Source of the DNA: Methylomicrobium agile
GTDB taxonomy: Bacteria > Pseudomonadota > Gammaproteobacteria > Methylococcales > Methylomonadaceae
Length of the DNA stretch: 64,000 nucleotides
Reading direction: 5' to 3'
NCBI RefSeq assembly: GCF_000733855.1
Contig: NZ_JPOJ01000001.1
Location: forward strand, 3,675,001-3,739,000
Part shown: positions 3,010-59,275 of the stretch, in pieces
Position numbering within the stretch: position 1 is the stretch's first letter
Layout: each line of letters starts with the position of its first letter
The notes under the pieces: model-generated
Databases searched by the model: none
What the model saw: only the letters and a program-made list of their open reading frames with translations
What the model was told of the DNA's origin: nothing
Made by a program: the position numbers and the translations under genes

Positions 3010-3040
3010 GTAGGGTACGCTGTTTACCATTGGAGGGTAA
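3010..3040. repeat. Partial GTAGGG-type palindromic repeat
   Basis: Bases 3010-3022 read GTAGGGTACGCTG, identical to the first 13 bases of the longer palindrome at 34342-34420. They are followed by a small hairpin TTTACC/GGTAAA (3023-3028 with 3035-3040). It is probably a degenerate copy of the same REP-like family. Confidence 0.5.
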
Positions 3041-3065
3041 AAAGGTATGCACTCGGCAACGGCTT

Positions 3066-5765: not shown

Positions 5766-6536
5766 TGGACCATCCAGAATGCAGCGTAATTTGTTGTACC
5801 TGCTGAACCGTTAAACCATGTTCGAGCAGCTGACTGGTTGCTTCATGCCGAAGATCATGGAATCGAAGATCTTCAATCTGTAAGAACCGGCAAGCCCGCG
5901 AGAAGTACTCTCCGATTGTGTTGCTGTTGTACGGGAAGATGTATTTTTTGCTCGTCTGAGGTTGCCGCATGATGATCTTGTACGCGCTCAACGGCAGCTT
6001 AGCCTTTTTCACTAAATCGCGCTTTTTCGGGTCCTTTAAATTTCTGACCCAAATTGTTCTATGCGCACGGTTTACGTCCGCCCACTCCAGTCTGGTAATT
6101 TCCGATTCCCGCCGCGCCGAATAGACGCAAACCACATCAATTCTGCCATGCGTCCGTCCAGTATGTTCGTGTCTTTGAAATAACGGGTGAGCTGCCATAA
6201 CTCCTGTCAAATCGTTAGCGGTCATAGGGTGGACGTCGACCTTCGATAAGTCGCAACCCAGCTCCTGTGTAGGTCTGCGCATTTCGTCCGCCCGGACGGC
6301 GGAAGGTCCGCCAAATATTGATTGATTACGTCTGCCAGCGGCAGGCGGCCCTTTTTCGCGTAGACCTCTGCTTCCTACAGTTCGATTTCGCGCCTTGCCC
6401 CCCAGTCCTTAGCGATCCGTTGCCGGTCGAACGTCTTGCTCTCACGATACACGACAATTCCGCTTTTTTTGACTACAATCTCAGCTTTAAATTTAACCGT
6501 TCCGTCTGCTTTGGTGATTTTTCGTATATGCGCCAT
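5766..6536 (-). pseudogene. Tyrosine recombinase/integrase, degraded and 3'-truncated
   Basis: Remains of a phage-type site-specific integrase. The N-terminal arm starts at ATG 6536 (MAHIRKITKADGTVKFKAE) and runs in one frame to a stop near 6375. The catalytic domain resumes in another register from about 6180 (VVCVYSARRESEITRLEWADVN, with the first catalytic Arg) through LRFHDLRHEATSQLLEHG (HxLR box). It ends at about 5770 at QITLHSGW, just before the expected Tyr nucleophile, where the IS630 fragment begins. Most of the core-binding domain between the two parts is lost. No attachment site or linked phage genes were found. Confidence 0.82.
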
Positions 6537-32259: not shown

Positions 32260-33519
32260 TTAGAACAAGCCGGCGAACGGTTTCACCCAGACCGTCTCTC
32301 CGGCTTTTACGTTGCCCCTGTCGTGTTCCAGAATGATCAAAGCGTTCGCGAGGCTCATCGAACTCAAGATGCCAGAACCCTGATTGCCGGTGCTTCGAAC
32401 TGTCCATTCGCCGTTTCGATCCGGGCCGATGATCCCTCGGGGGACTTCGGTGCGTCCCGGCTTCTTGCGCAGGTCGTCCAGCGTTCGGGCCCGGAAAACC
32501 GGCACGATCGGCTTGTTATCGATTCCGAGCATTTTTTCGAGCGCGGGCAGAACAAGGAGATAAAAAGTCACCATGACCGCGACCGGGTTGCCGGGCAACC
32601 CGAAGAATACCCCATTGCCGATCCGGCCGAAGGCAAGAGGGCGGCCGGGTTTGACCGCGACCTTCCAGAAGCCGATCCGTCCCGAAGCTTGCAGCGCGGT
32701 TTTGGTGTAATCGGCTTCCCCCGAAGAAACGCCGCCGGTCGAAACGATCACATCGGTGAACTCGGCGGCCTGATCGAAAGCGTTCAGCAGTGCGTCGGGC
32801 CGGTCTTCGACGATGCCGAGATTGATCACTTCGATATCGGGCCGATCGAGCGCCGCCCACAGGCTGTAGCGGTTGCTGTCGTAGAGGCCGCCCGCCTTGG
32901 GCGTCGTTCCGATACTGAAAATTTCGTCCCCGGTCGAGGCGATCGCGATCCGGAGTTTGCGGACCACATTGATTTCGGGAATGCCGAGTGAAGCGAGCAG
33001 GCCAATGTCGGGCGGGGTCAGCCATTTGCCCGGATAGAGGATCGTCTGGCCTTGACGGATGTCTTCGCCGGCCCGGCGCACGTTCTGGCCCGGCTTATGG
33101 CGTCCGTCGATCAGCACGGTATTGCCGCGCCGTTCCGCATGTTCCTGCATGACCACCGTATCGAGCCCTTCCGGCATCGGGGCGCCCGTCATGATGCGCA
33201 GGCATTGGCCGGGATTGAGCTTGCCCTGAAATGGTTCGCCGGCGTAAGCCTTGCCGGCAATCTCCAAAATGCGCGTGCCTTCCGCCGGCAAATCGGCCCC
33301 GTTCAGCGCATAACCGTCGACCGCCGAGTTGGTATGCCCCGGTACATTGAAATCGGCCGTGATGGCTTCGGCCAGGGTACGGCCGCGCGCATTTTCGATA
33401 TTCACCCGTTCGTAGCCGCCAAGCGGCGGCGATGCGGCCAGAATGCGGGCCAGCGCATCGTTCAGCGGAATCAGTCCGGGTTCGTGGATGTCGCCGCAGG
33501 CGGGTTGGATTTTGATCAT
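32260..33519 (-). CDS. moeA: Molybdopterin molybdotransferase MoeA
   Basis: Inserts molybdenum into molybdopterin-AMP to form molybdenum cofactor. The 419-residue product shows DFNVPGHTNSAVDGYAL, the MoCF-domain stretch STGGVSSGEADYTK and GLPGNPVAVMVTF. The start is ATG 33519, which overlaps the soxA stop by four bases (ATGA); upstream in-frame Met codons lie inside soxA and add no homology. It is the last gene of the thiD-thiE-soxXYZA transcript. No molybdoenzyme gene lies in the window. Confidence 0.95.
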   Translation of the reverse strand: MIKIQPACGDIHEPGLIPLNDALARILAASPPLGGYERVNIENARGRTLAEAITADFNVPGHTNSAVDGYALNGADLPAEGTRILEIAGKAYAGEPFQGKLNPGQCLRIMTGAPMPEGLDTVVMQEHAERRGNTVLIDGRHKPGQNVRRAGEDIRQGQTILYPGKWLTPPDIGLLASLGIPEINVVRKLRIAIASTGDEIFSIGTTPKAGGLYDSNRYSLWAALDRPDIEVINLGIVEDRPDALLNAFDQAAEFTDVIVSTGGVSSGEADYTKTALQASGRIGFWKVAVKPGRPLAFGRIGNGVFFGLPGNPVAVMVTFYLLVLPALEKMLGIDNKPIVPVFRARTLDDLRKKPGRTEVPRGIIGPDRNGEWTVRSTGNQGSGILSSMSLANALIILEHDRGNVKAGETVWVKPFAGLF

Positions 33520-34436
33520 TTGCGTGTACTGGGTCCGGAGATCGGAACGCCGTTGCTCATGTAGCTCAGGAAATATTCGAGATTGCGCAGGACGGCGCTT
33601 TGCGCGGGCGGTGCTTCGGCTCTGATTTGCGTCAGGCATTCGCGAAAACGCCGGTGCAGGGTGCCCATTTCGCTCCATTTCAACCGGTAAGCCGGCCAGT
33701 TGGCGGTATGGCCGAGCGATGCGCCGAGGATTTCGGAACGGAGGCGCTTGCCGGCGTTTTGCACATGGCAGGTCGCGCAGGCGAAATTCAGTTGGCCGTG
33801 GCGTTCGTAATAAAAGTCCTTGCCTTGTTGATAAGCTGCTAGGGCACGCAGGTCGGCTTCAGGAATCACCGTTTTGATCGCTTTCCCGTGCGAGGTGTAG
33901 GCCATGTAGGCGAGCAGTTGGGTGATCTCGCCTGTTTCGGCGTCCAGCGGTTTTTCGCGGTTTCTTTCCCGGCAGTCGTTCAGCGCTTGGGCGAGCGTGA
34001 CGACTTCGCCTTTGTCTTTATCCCATTGCGGATAGCGATGCGCGATACCGATGCCTTTATTCGGAAAACAGTCGGCATAGCGGCCGCCGGTTTGCGGAAA
34101 AGGCATATTGAACAGCTTTTCGCCTTGTTCGATCGCCTCTTCATAAGGCGGAAATTCTTCGATCGCCTGCCAGGATTCGCGCGCGACCGGGTCGATCGCA
34201 TAGACGCCGTTGGCGTAATCGCTCAGGTGCAACTGCGGGAAGAGCCGGCGGTAATGTTCCCTGAATTGCTGCCGGTCTTGCTGCGGTGCGGCATGCAGGG
34301 GGAAAGCGACAAGCAGGAGGCCAGAGAGCAAAACGCTTTTCGTAGGGTACGCTGTGCGTACCTTTCTGAAATTTTGACACTTACGAAAGATTTGAAAAAG
34401 GTACGCACAGCGTACCCTACCTTCATTTGAGGACAT
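33516..34436 (-). CDS. soxA: Sulfur oxidation c-type cytochrome SoxA (start disrupted by a repeat)
   Basis: Subunit of SoxAX, which conjugates sulfur compounds to the SoxY Cys in the periplasm. The mature part has the SoxA pattern: NKGIGIAHRYPQWD after a degenerate first heme site (YADCF), one heme motif CATCH, and a late ligand Cys in FRECLTQIRAEA. The ancestral start was very probably ATG 34426, overlapping the soxZ stop, giving MKSVLLSGLLLVAFPLHA as signal. A palindromic repeat (34342-34420) plus a 3-bp duplication adds 83 bp there and breaks that frame. The present frame is open only from ATG 34436 or 34454 inside soxZ, putting about 30 repeat-encoded residues before the signal. Function may be impaired. 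Confidence 0.85.
   Translation of the reverse strand: MSSNEGRVRCAYLFQIFRKCQNFRKVRTAYPTKSVLLSGLLLVAFPLHAAPQQDRQQFREHYRRLFPQLHLSDYANGVYAIDPVARESWQAIEEFPPYEEAIEQGEKLFNMPFPQTGGRYADCFPNKGIGIAHRYPQWDKDKGEVVTLAQALNDCRERNREKPLDAETGEITQLLAYMAYTSHGKAIKTVIPEADLRALAAYQQGKDFYYERHGQLNFACATCHVQNAGKRLRSEILGASLGHTANWPAYRLKWSEMGTLHRRFRECLTQIRAEAPPAQSAVLRNLEYFLSYMSNGVPISGPSTRK
34342..34420. repeat. REP-like palindrome inserted at the soxA start
   Basis: A 79-bp element with perfect 24-bp inverted arms, beginning GTAGGGTACGCTGTGCGTAC and ending in its exact complement, around a 31-bp A+T-rich loop. It is flanked by GAA on both sides on the soxA strand (34424-34422 and 34341-34339). Taking out 80 bp plus one GAA restores an in-frame soxA start. 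Confidence 0.9.
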
Positions 34437-34734
34437 GCTCTTCGCTGTCTTCATTGCCGAGATTGTCGATCCATTCGATCTTGATTTTGTCGCCGGGCTC
34501 GCCGCCTTTCAGCATGAACGCGAAATACGGGTCTTTCGAAATGCTCATGCCCACCTGGCAGTTCATGACCGTCTTGTCGTTGTGGCTCAACCTCAGTTCC
34601 CGGATGAAATGGGCCGGAATCGGTTGGTTCGTCTTCGGATCCTTGCTGCGGCCGGTTTCCATCGGGTGCGTGATCAGGGTCCGGATCTGAGTCTTGGCTT
34701 CGAGGCGTTTGGCGCGAATTTTGATGCTAGACAT
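34423..34734 (-). CDS. soxZ: Sulfur carrier complex subunit SoxZ
   Basis: A 103-residue partner of SoxY forming the periplasmic carrier for sulfur intermediates. Sequence fits the family throughout: MSSIKIRAKRLEAKTQIRTL, PAHFIRELRLSHNDK and ISKDPYFAFMLKGGEPGD. It has no signal peptide of its own, as usual; it is exported with SoxY. It starts 3 bp after soxY, and its stop overlaps the original soxA start. Confidence 0.94.
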   Translation of the reverse strand: MSSIKIRAKRLEAKTQIRTLITHPMETGRSKDPKTNQPIPAHFIRELRLSHNDKTVMNCQVGMSISKDPYFAFMLKGGEPGDKIKIEWIDNLGNEDSEEHVLK

Positions 34735-34737
34735 TTT

Positions 34738-35205
34738 TCAACCTCCGCAACCGCCGATCGTGACTTTGACCAGTTGTCTGGCGCTGTACAGGCCGCCAGA
34801 GGTTTCCGCGACCGCGATCACTTCGGAGGTCTCGGCCATTTTCAGGCGTGCCGAAACGACGGGATCGAGATCGGGCGATAGCTCGAAGCACGCGGCCAGC
34901 GGTACCGGATTTTTCGCCACGAAGATCGAGACGGTGCTGACGCCGGGCAGGGAACTGCTGACCGTGATCGGCACGATCGCGCCGTTTTCGGCGATCAGCG
35001 GAATCTTGATTTCGATGTCTTTGCTTTCGGTGATTTTTTGGTCCTTGAATGATCGTTTCAGCGATTCTTCGAGCGGGCCTTGTTTGAAGTTTTCGGCCCG
35101 CCATTCGGCGAATACCTTGAGCGGCGCAAACAGGCCCAAGGTCGAAGCCAGCGAATAGGCGCTGAAAGCCAGCGATTTTCCAAGGAAAGAGCGGCGGGTG
35201 GTCAT
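34738..35205 (-). CDS. soxY: Sulfur carrier protein SoxY
   Basis: Carries sulfur intermediates on a C-terminal Cys during thiosulfate or sulfide oxidation. The 155-residue product starts with a twin-arginine signal (MTTRRSFLGKSLAFSAYSL), explaining export of the folded SoxYZ pair. It ends in the swinging-arm motif KVTIGGCGG. The start at 35205 overlaps the soxX stop by four bases (ATGA). Confidence 0.95.
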   Translation of the reverse strand: MTTRRSFLGKSLAFSAYSLASTLGLFAPLKVFAEWRAENFKQGPLEESLKRSFKDQKITESKDIEIKIPLIAENGAIVPITVSSSLPGVSTVSIFVAKNPVPLAACFELSPDLDPVVSARLKMAETSEVIAVAETSGGLYSARQLVKVTIGGCGG

Positions 35206-35546
35206 GGCAGACTCCATAAATAGTCGACGATCCGGTCGATTTCGTCGGGAGTGAGAATCCTGTTTCTGCCGAACGGCGGCATACTGGTTTCGGGGTTGAA
35301 GCGGGTCGCGTTGAAGATCTGTTCTCGCAGCGGCGCTTTATCCTTGAAACGCGTTTTCAAAGCCGCCAGCGGTGGGCCGATATCGCCGGGCGATTCGCCG
35401 CCGTCGATCGCGTGGCAGGCTAGGCAGTTGCCTTTGTTGCGGTCGAAGGCCAACTGCTTGCCGTCCTTCAAACGATCTTCCGGCTTGTGAGCGGTAGGGG
35501 CGCAGGCGGCCAGTAGTCCGAACAAAACCAGTAACGGGAATTTCAT
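35202..35546 (-). CDS. soxX: Sulfur oxidation c-type cytochrome SoxX
   Basis: Monoheme cytochrome partner of SoxA, 114 residues. An N-terminal signal ends LLAAC, which could be lipidated. The heme site CLACH follows, with GDIGPPLAALKTRF and a Met ligand in TSMPPFGRNRILT. The start ATG 35546 overlaps the thiE stop by four bases and its own stop overlaps soxY, so the whole operon is translationally coupled. Confidence 0.92.
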   Translation of the reverse strand: MKFPLLVLFGLLAACAPTAHKPEDRLKDGKQLAFDRNKGNCLACHAIDGGESPGDIGPPLAALKTRFKDKAPLREQIFNATRFNPETSMPPFGRNRILTPDEIDRIVDYLWSLP

Positions 35547-36163
35547 TGGCTATCGAACAGGCGTTGATAGGCGTGGGCCGAAAGCTCCGGATCGCGGTCG
35601 AAAATACCGCCGATCACGGCCAGCAAATCGGCTCCGGCCGCGAGCAGCGCCGCGCCGTTTTCGGGCAGAATGCCGCCGATCGCGACGATCGGAATCGACA
35701 GCGCCTGCTTGGCCTGCCGAAGCGTATCCGGATGCGCGGGAGAAGCCAAAGGCTTCGTGCCGGAAGGGAAAAAACGTCCGAAAGCCGCATAAGTTGCGCC
35801 GTGCGCCTGGGCTTCCAGCGCCCGTTCGAGCGAGTCGTAGCAGGAAATGCCGATGATCGCATCGGTGCCGAGCCGCTCCCGGGCCTCGCGGATATGGCCG
35901 TCATTCTTGCCGAGATGCACGCCGTCGGCGCCGGCTTCCAGCGTCAGTCCGATGTTGTCGTTGATCAGCAGCGGGACTCGATGCCGGTGGCAGACCTTGA
36001 CCAGTTCGCGGGCCAAAGTCAGCGCATCGTGGGGATGTTTGTCGCGGTATTGTACGACGACCGCGCCGCCGCGAATCGCGGCCTCGACTTCGGCGATGAC
36101 CGTGGCCGGCGATTTGCCGTCGGTTTGGGTGATTGCGTACAGCCCGCGTGGAGGGAATCTCAT
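35543..36163 (-). CDS. thiE: Thiamine-phosphate synthase
   Basis: Joins HMP pyrophosphate and thiazole phosphate to make thiamine phosphate. The 206-residue product has VVVQYRDKHP, LLINDNIGLTLEAGADGVHLG and the phosphate-binding AIGGILPENGAALLAAG. ATG 36163 is chosen; it overlaps the thiD stop. Upstream in-frame sequence belongs to thiD. It sits directly before soxX with overlapping codons. Confidence 0.95.
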   Translation of the reverse strand: MRFPPRGLYAITQTDGKSPATVIAEVEAAIRGGAVVVQYRDKHPHDALTLARELVKVCHRHRVPLLINDNIGLTLEAGADGVHLGKNDGHIREARERLGTDAIIGISCYDSLERALEAQAHGATYAAFGRFFPSGTKPLASPAHPDTLRQAKQALSIPIVAIGGILPENGAALLAAGADLLAVIGGIFDRDPELSAHAYQRLFDSQ

Positions 36164-36951
36164 ACGCCCGCCTCCATCCAGAACAGGCGGTCCGGATTGT
36201 GCTGGCCCTTGCCGGGCGGATAGCCGTGCCGCAGCGCATTCCAGGTATATTCCTGCGCTTCGTAAGCGGCCTGTGCCGGAGTCAGCCCCTGGGCCAGAAG
36301 CCCCGCGATGCAGGCCGCCATCGTGCAGCCGGAGCCGTGATAGCTTTCGGGCAGCCGGTCCCAATGGAAGGTTTCGATACGGCGTCCGTCGTGATAGAGT
36401 CGGTTGCTGACCGTCGGCGTCGTTTCGTGCGCGCCGGTAACCAGTACATAGCGGCAGCCTTTTTCCAGCAAAGCCGGCCCGCATTCGTCCAGATCCACGA
36501 GCCCTGCCAGCTGGCGCGCTTCCTGACTGTTGGGCGTCAGCACGGTCGTACGTGGCAGCAGGAGATCGACGATCGCATCGATCAATTTCCGATCCGACAT
36601 TTCCGCGCCGCCGCCGGCCGCGAGCACCGGATCGAGCACGACCGGAATGTGCGGATGCTGTTGCAGGATCGCATGGATCGCTTCGGCGGTTTTATGATGG
36701 CCGATCAGGCCGATTTTGAAGACCTTGACGTCCAGATCCGCCAACACGGTTTCGGCCTGGTTAATGATGTCTTCGGGGTTCTGCGGCAACAGCTTCTTGA
36801 CGTTTCGAGTATCCTGCTCGGTCAGCGCGGTAATCACGCTCGCGGCATGGCAATGCTGGCTGACCAGCGTTTCGATATCGGCCTGCACGCCGGCCCCGCC
36901 GCTCGGGTCATGGCCGGAAAAGCAGAGTACGATAGGACGGGTGATCGACAT
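36160..36951 (-). CDS. thiD: Hydroxymethylpyrimidine/phosphomethylpyrimidine kinase
   Basis: Phosphorylates HMP and HMP phosphate for thiamine synthesis. The 263-residue product shows SGHDPSGGAGVQADIE, VVLDPVLAAGGGAEMSD and the anion hole ESYHGSGCTMAACIAG. ATG 36951 is the likely start, though a TTG at 36966 is possible. It heads the run thiD-thiE-soxXYZA-moeA. No TPP riboswitch signature was found in the leader up to 37100. Confidence 0.95.
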   Translation of the reverse strand: MSITRPIVLCFSGHDPSGGAGVQADIETLVSQHCHAASVITALTEQDTRNVKKLLPQNPEDIINQAETVLADLDVKVFKIGLIGHHKTAEAIHAILQQHPHIPVVLDPVLAAGGGAEMSDRKLIDAIVDLLLPRTTVLTPNSQEARQLAGLVDLDECGPALLEKGCRYVLVTGAHETTPTVSNRLYHDGRRIETFHWDRLPESYHGSGCTMAACIAGLLAQGLTPAQAAYEAQEYTWNALRHGYPPGKGQHNPDRLFWMEAGV

Positions 36952-58642: not shown

Positions 58643-59275
58643 CCCCCGGCTCTGCCGGGGAGACAGCGAAAGTTTGACATTCAGCGGAGTCCATCAGGAA
58701 ACTCAGCATCGTGAACCGCCAAGTACACGATAGAGGAGAACCTGATGGACGAGAATGAAAGCTTAAGTCACTCCCGCTGGGAGTGCAAATATCATGTGGT
58801 ATTTATCCCGAAATGCCGGCGACGCACTTTGTATAAAGCATTGCGTCAGCATTTGGGAGAGGTCTTTCGAAGGCTGGCGAGCCAGAAAGAAAGCCGGATA
58901 CTGGAAGGGCATTTGATGCCAGATCATGTCCATATGTTGATTGCGATACCGCCGAAGTATGCGGTGTCGCAAGTGATCGGTTTCGTCAAAGGGAAGAGCG
59001 CCATCCATTTGGCGCGGGTTTATGGAGAGAAGAAACGAAATTTTGTGGGGCAACACTTTTGGGCGCGGGGTTACTTTGTTTCGACGGTGGGTCGAGATGA
59101 AACGATGATCCGAGAATACATACGGCACCAGGAACAAGAAGACCAGCGAATTGAACAATTGAATCTTTGGAACTGAACGCCACCTTGAGGTGGCTATTAA
59201 ATTAGGGGCCGCGTTAGCGACCCCTTATACCGCTTTGAGCGGTTCACAACATAAAGCCCCCGGCTTTGCCGGGGG
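58643..59275 (+). mobile_element. IS200-type insertion sequence, apparently intact
   Basis: One short transposase gene lies between subterminal hairpins: CCCCCGGC-TCT-GCCGGGG (58643-58660) on the left and CCCCCGGC-TTT-GCCGGGGG (59257-59275) on the right, as in IS200/IS605 elements. Exact ends are probably a few bases outside these. A 10-bp direct repeat TATCTGATAA lies further out on both sides (58611-58620 and 59287-59296). There is no tnpB. Confidence 0.85.
58745..59176 (+). CDS. tnpA: IS200-family Y1 transposase TnpA
   Basis: Single-strand transposase of 143 residues. The HUH motif is H61-V-H63 in LMPDHVHMLIAI. The probable catalytic Tyr is Y125 in MIREYIRHQE. The N-terminus WECKYHVVFIPKCRRR is typical of the family. 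GAGGAGAA lies about five bases before ATG 58745. All catalytic residues are present, so the element may be active. It is inserted between divergent hrcA and nadK. Confidence 0.94.
   Translation: MDENESLSHSRWECKYHVVFIPKCRRRTLYKALRQHLGEVFRRLASQKESRILEGHLMPDHVHMLIAIPPKYAVSQVIGFVKGKSAIHLARVYGEKKRNFVGQHFWARGYFVSTVGRDETMIREYIRHQEQEDQRIEQLNLWN

Follow-up and report, generated by a model that had tools for sequence, protein, structure and literature searches.

REPIN/RAYT systems consist of inverted, GTAG-tagged REP pairs that are present in high copy number, together with a RAYT that has such REPs on either side (Bertels and Rainey 2011, PMC3116915). The element described here, at the start of soxA in Methylomicrobium agile, shares with the REPINs of that study the inverted GTAG REPs, the hairpin, the copy number and a cognate RAYT in the same genome, but whereas those REPINs are described as extragenic, the soxA copy falls within a coding frame. 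Intragenic dimers of GTAG REPs are treated in a section of a further study (PMC3733652), according to which they encode 20-30 residues with an excess at the N-terminus, and as far as that section goes the soxA REPIN resembles them in lying within an ORF, in its N-terminal position and in its scale of 20-30 residues. The main text of that study names no methanotroph, and no inverted core is among the cases given in its section on intragenic dimers. Since in-frame REP dimers have already been described, the soxA REPIN is a well-supported further example of a known phenomenon. Two other systems bear comparison. The Rickettsia palindromic elements (RPE) are, going by their description, similar in that a palindrome lies in frame and the gene keeps working, and for RPE-1 at an N-terminus PMC3733652 mentions expression in vivo; the host of the soxA REPIN, in contrast, is unrelated to Rickettsia. 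The template-switch cases in yeast (PMC8604942) are similar in that the spacer is inverted, the arms change in step, the event lies in a gene and several residues change at once, but they concern short yeast inverted repeats and up to five residues, whereas the present case is a bacterial REPIN.

Results

The element and its gene. The window, i.e. the whole stretch of 64,000 nucleotides of the M. agile genome that was analysed, carries on its minus strand an operon in the order soxX, soxY, soxZ, soxA, and all four genes exceed the NCBIfam cut-offs (Table 1). The inverted repeat occupies exactly 34342-34420, between the soxZ stop codon (34423-34425) and the SoxA signal sequence. The preliminary description saw in it a palindromic repeat that had inserted where soxA begins, which agrees with our results, and a perfect palindrome of 79 bp, which does not: the arms are 34 nt long with 31 of the 34 positions paired (91% complementary), only the outer 24 are perfect, and the loop is 11 nt. 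The RNA fold of the element has an energy of -48.6 kcal/mol compared with -16.6 for shuffles (z -11.8). Both arms carry the REP unit GTAG + GGTACGC-TGT-GCGTACC, i.e. the tag followed by a short palindrome that is expected of a REPIN, and the two REPs are inverted around a spacer of the variable kind and fold as a single hairpin. The one departure is the extragenic location, which is typical of the family though optional for a given copy; the soxA copy sits in the SoxA frame. The repeat at the soxA start is thus a REPIN, a non-autonomous hairpin element. A known structured RNA was considered separately and rejected, as the only Rfam matches were to miRNA and snoRNA models, far under the cut-offs.

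Table 1. Features of the soxZ-soxA region and operon, in window coordinates
Feature	Position	Strand	Remarks
REPIN	34342..34420	.	two inverted REPs around a 37-nt spacer
REP arm GTAGGGTACGCTGTGCGTACC	34342..34362	+	5' GTAG tag, then 7-bp stem and 3-nt loop
REP arm GTAGGGTACGCTGTGCGTACC, inverted partner	34400..34420	-	REP pattern match
REPIN core, inverted in RS1	34366..34396	.	core scores 1 direct, 27 inverted
soxA, best reading 306 aa from ATG 34436	33516..34436	-	TIGR04484, 239.5 bits (cut-off 110)
soxZ, 103 aa	34423..34734	-	TIGR04490, 123 bits (cut-off 76)
soxY	34738..35217	-	TIGR04488, 165 bits
soxX	35202..35546	-	TIGR04485, 92.9 bits
Signal h- and c-region SVLLSGLLLVAFPLHA	34290..34337	-	hydropathy only
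ATG, likeliest SoxA start	34434..34436	-	-11 to soxZ stop; common to RS1, L072 and L038
ATG of longest ORF	34452..34454	-	ACA in RS1, so not a conserved start
ATG of ATGA overlap	34424..34426	-	out of frame; in RS1 reaches a stop inside the element
TTG	34329..34331	-	sole in-frame ATG/GTG/TTG between REPIN and mature protein; would give MLSGLLLVAFPLHA

The REP family and its RAYT. With at most one mismatch, the 21-nt REP pattern occurs 135 times in forward and 134 times in reverse orientation in the 4.53 Mb Methylomicrobium genome, while the reversed pattern, used as control, has none in either direction. The REPIN copy number is accordingly about 130 in the genome, which is high, as expected of REPINs. 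Inverted pairs make up 87 of the 107 elements sampled, mostly 52-90 bp long with variable spacers, and nearly all paired elements in this sample start with GTAG and end with CTAC. The genome also encodes a RAYT: an ORF at 1204-1875 of L134 matches NF047646 (REP_Tyr_transpos) with 186 bits against a cut-off of 80, and on both sides it has REPs of this same pattern (L134 1155-1175, 1795-1815 and 1881-1901), as is expected of a cognate RAYT. The longest form of this ORF (1204-1901) extends into the upstream REPIN at 1795-1901; the true start is probably M37, directly past the REPIN, as the transposase model matches from residue 40 onwards. Elsewhere in the window there is a degenerate REP of the same family at 3010-3050, which adjoins other repeat-like sequence, and an IS200-type Y1 transposase on the plus strand at 58775-59131, with an equal-scoring second copy about 140 kb away.

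RAYTs are HUH (Y1) type transposases and, to our knowledge, IS200/IS605-like enzymes make no target duplication. The GAA on each side of the soxA element, from which an insertion of 83 bp had initially been deduced, is present; the removal of 83 bp is an assumption, since repeats of 2-4 bp at four offsets around 85 sibling elements showed no clear excess over shuffles. GAA is therefore no evidence of target duplication, and the missing excess fits the HUH (Y1) nature of RAYTs. A MITE with target-site duplication was rejected on the same grounds, i.e. flank repeats not clearly above shuffle level across the 85 elements. A clean empty site was sought across 1.6 Mb of Methylomicrobium sp. RS1, with none found, and most comparable sites were filled in both species; one near-empty case (3905212) retains a REP remnant. 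As the bare 79 bp are not divisible by three, the net insertion would have to be 81 or 84 bp.

The same insertion in a sister species. In RS1 the REPIN lies at the identical base and has equal length, between AAATGAAG and GAAAAGCG. The soxA gene of RS1 is open from the same place and its protein is 88% identical. The RS1 assembly is independent, and a read or assembly error is thereby ruled out. The REPIN probably entered soxA before the two species split.

Frame and start codon of soxA. soxZ ends in AAATGA, and the ATG of this overlap (34426) is out of frame with SoxA. In frame with SoxA there are just two ATGs, 34454 and 34436, both within soxZ. The preliminary description was accurate on the out-of-frame ATG, as also in its statement that SoxA must start inside soxZ with some 27-30 repeat-encoded residues before the signal. 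It further proposed that soxA originally began at ATG 34426 and that an insertion of 80-83 bp broke the frame, so that the long N-terminus would represent tolerated damage. Deleting 83 bp does indeed yield a reading with an ideal signal from ATG 34426 (MKSVLLSGLLLVAFPLHA), ATGA is used at other junctions of the operon, and ATGA starts are seen in other SoxA clades. To compare the junction with that of relatives, the frame was mapped on a SoxA tree from their soxZ-soxA junctions; the relevant clade has 19 rows, is supported (95/86), and comprises Methylomicrobium, Methylobacter, Methylovulum and Methyloglobulus. The SoxA frame relative to soxZ is +1 in the window, and all clade genes whose frame extends back into soxZ are likewise +1, while in the rows with a different frame soxA is set apart by a spacer and has its own start past the soxZ stop. 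Starting inside soxZ is therefore normal in this clade, and the comparison speaks against a frameshift. None of the 19 rows has an ATGA start of soxA, which was found in other SoxA clades only. The window (34436), RS1, Methylovulum L072 and G002/L038 all have an in-frame ATG that precedes the soxZ stop by 11 nt. The GAA flank is not a feature of the family, which weakens the case for 83 bp, soxA is intact and constrained in both species, and RS1 combines this repeat with a long N-terminus that is conserved, a situation that the frameshift account itself had named as incompatible with it. Altogether, a damaged reading frame seems to us unlikely.

Since ATG 34454 is lost in RS1 (ACA), 34436 is the conserved start, and the simplest reading of the sequence is that soxA most likely starts there. 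Some observations count against this assignment. Methylobacter lacks an ATG at -11, ATG 34436 is partly constrained by the soxZ codons CAT GTC, and the predicted Shine-Dalgarno pairing of ATG 34436 (-1.0 kcal/mol) is weaker than that of ATG 34426 (-2.1). The pairing is predicted to be weak at all candidate starts, and likewise at the homologous start of L072 (-0.9); initiation at ATG 34436 thus rests on an assumed coupling to soxZ translation. In the nearest sister (G028/L032) the junction is about 180 nt long and does not overlap soxZ, so that the tree does not fix the frame just before the insertion. Ribosomal frameshifting from ATG 34426 was also considered and rejected, because this frame has a stop inside the element in RS1. 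In its longest form, a thiE-like ORF at 35543-36484 of the window runs into a stop in RS1, so that this gene probably begins further downstream.

The probable signal extension and selection on soxA. Read from ATG 34436, SoxA has the layout MSSNEG, REPIN peptide, TKSVLLSGLLLVAFPLHA and mature SoxA, and the REPIN encodes residues 6-32 (G6-T32), i.e. 27 residues, in the +1 frame. The signal was assessed by hydropathy and charge only; the n-region has 8 K/R and 1 D/E in the window and 7 and 3, respectively, in RS1. The sequence aligns with solved SoxA structures to its C-terminus. For the SoxA core, comparison of the two species gives dN/dS 0.28 at dS 0.18, close to the operon partners soxZ (0.24) and soxX (0.33), and there are no stops and no indels over 306 codons in either of them. 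SoxA is under purifying selection, and in both species the constrained host gene is open through the element, as expected of an in-frame coding insert; an open frame of this length could nevertheless be due to chance.

These values bear on the possibility that the insertion silenced soxA and that the gene is a decaying pseudogene, for which the strong hairpin right after the soxA start and the lack of a good Shine-Dalgarno sequence could be cited. The uninterrupted frame, a core constraint similar to that of the operon partners and the full match to the SoxA model all oppose it, and we regard silencing as extremely improbable.

A different case is that of a noncoding REPIN, in which SoxA would start at TTG 34331 and the hairpin would be an untranslated intercistronic element tuning soxA expression. 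This TTG is conserved in RS1, and other genes here seem to start right after a REPIN, as for instance a TTG-start gene (L028) that we take, from its N-terminus, to be homoserine-dehydrogenase-like. The literature cautions that many N-terminal REPs may be noncoding (PMC3733652). However, the TTG start would leave MLSGLLLVAFPLHA, a 14-residue signal without a positive, or indeed any charged, n-region. Shine-Dalgarno pairing of this TTG is predicted at -0.1 kcal/mol, and the codon itself is for the most part base-paired. The frame through the REPIN is moreover open in both species despite the inversion of the core (see below), which argues against an untranslated element, and a start at the TTG is in our opinion doubtful.

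Inversion of the core. Compared with RS1, the whole element has 59 of 79 positions identical when aligned directly and 75 of 79 when reverse-complemented, while its flanks are not inverted. The arms have changed in a paired manner, from GTAGgG/CCCTAC in the window to GTAGaG/CTCTAC in RS1. Only the SoxA frame (RVRC...) is stop-free in the elements of both species, and the gene stayed open because this one frame lacks a stop in either orientation. Where polymerase template switching acts on inverted repeats, it characteristically inverts the spacer and homogenises the arms, as described for yeast coding genes (PMC8604942); the inverted core and matched arm change agree with that prediction, which suggests such a mechanism. 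A second REPIN shared by the two species, at 1570403 of the M. agile genome (L168; C22 in RS1), also has an inverted core (scores -7.5 direct and 2.5 inverted); given this second case, in-place inversion of REPIN cores may recur. Among the other shared cores, eight align better in the direct orientation and three are too diverged to call. At 6157 (L142; C62 in RS1) the two species have the same flanks and different REPINs, 56 vs 75 bp with unrelated cores, as if one REPIN had replaced the other. It is conceivable, if very unlikely, that the soxA REPIN is an invertible coding cassette, in which stop-free flips would switch the peptide before the export signal and perhaps alter how fast SoxA is exported or translated.

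Other REPINs overlapping genes. Of the 43 elements in the 1.6 Mb of RS1, six overlap with coding-like ORFs. Five of these are isolated 21-nt matches, which leaves the soxA copy as the sole paired REPIN in the group. Several ORFs in the M. agile genome can be extended through a REPIN, some of them with plausible starts after it. An RND efflux adaptor gene (L153 3749-5086, about 792218-793555 in its own genome) resembles soxA: it has a 75-bp REPIN in frame before a signal-like h-region, at a position relative to this region like that in soxA, and an ATGA-overlap start 48 codons upstream, with the same layout and no stops in RS1. Its dN/dS is 0.64 before the REPIN, 0.91 within it and 0.21 after it, i.e. 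the N-terminus is weakly constrained.

Discussion

A REPIN of the family served by the RAYT lies in the start of soxA. Taken together, we consider it likely that it is read in frame from ATG 34436, adds 27 residues to the signal n-region, and had its core inverted at a later time. The REPIN would have inserted into the first soxA codons before the species split. Translation of SoxA would begin at ATG 34436, i.e. 10 nt ahead of the ATGA, and would follow the +1 frame normal for the clade, with initiation probably depending on ribosomes that complete soxZ. In-frame read-through would give the n-region of the Sec signal 27 further residues with a positive net charge, leaving the h-region, the cleavage site and the mature cytochrome unchanged, and the extension should go with signal removal. 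After the split, the hairpin core was inverted and the paired arm change fixed, as polymerase template switching in an inverted repeat would do.

The soxA REPIN indicates that a conserved gene can accommodate a mobile hairpin among its first codons, presumably because the extra charged residues of the signal n-region leave with the signal. It also carries a warning for annotation, as the correct start codon can sit inside the upstream gene. The pair of species provides a clear natural record of core inversion with paired arm change in a bacterial intragenic REPIN, so that template switching can be tested as a source of abrupt change in several residues at once.
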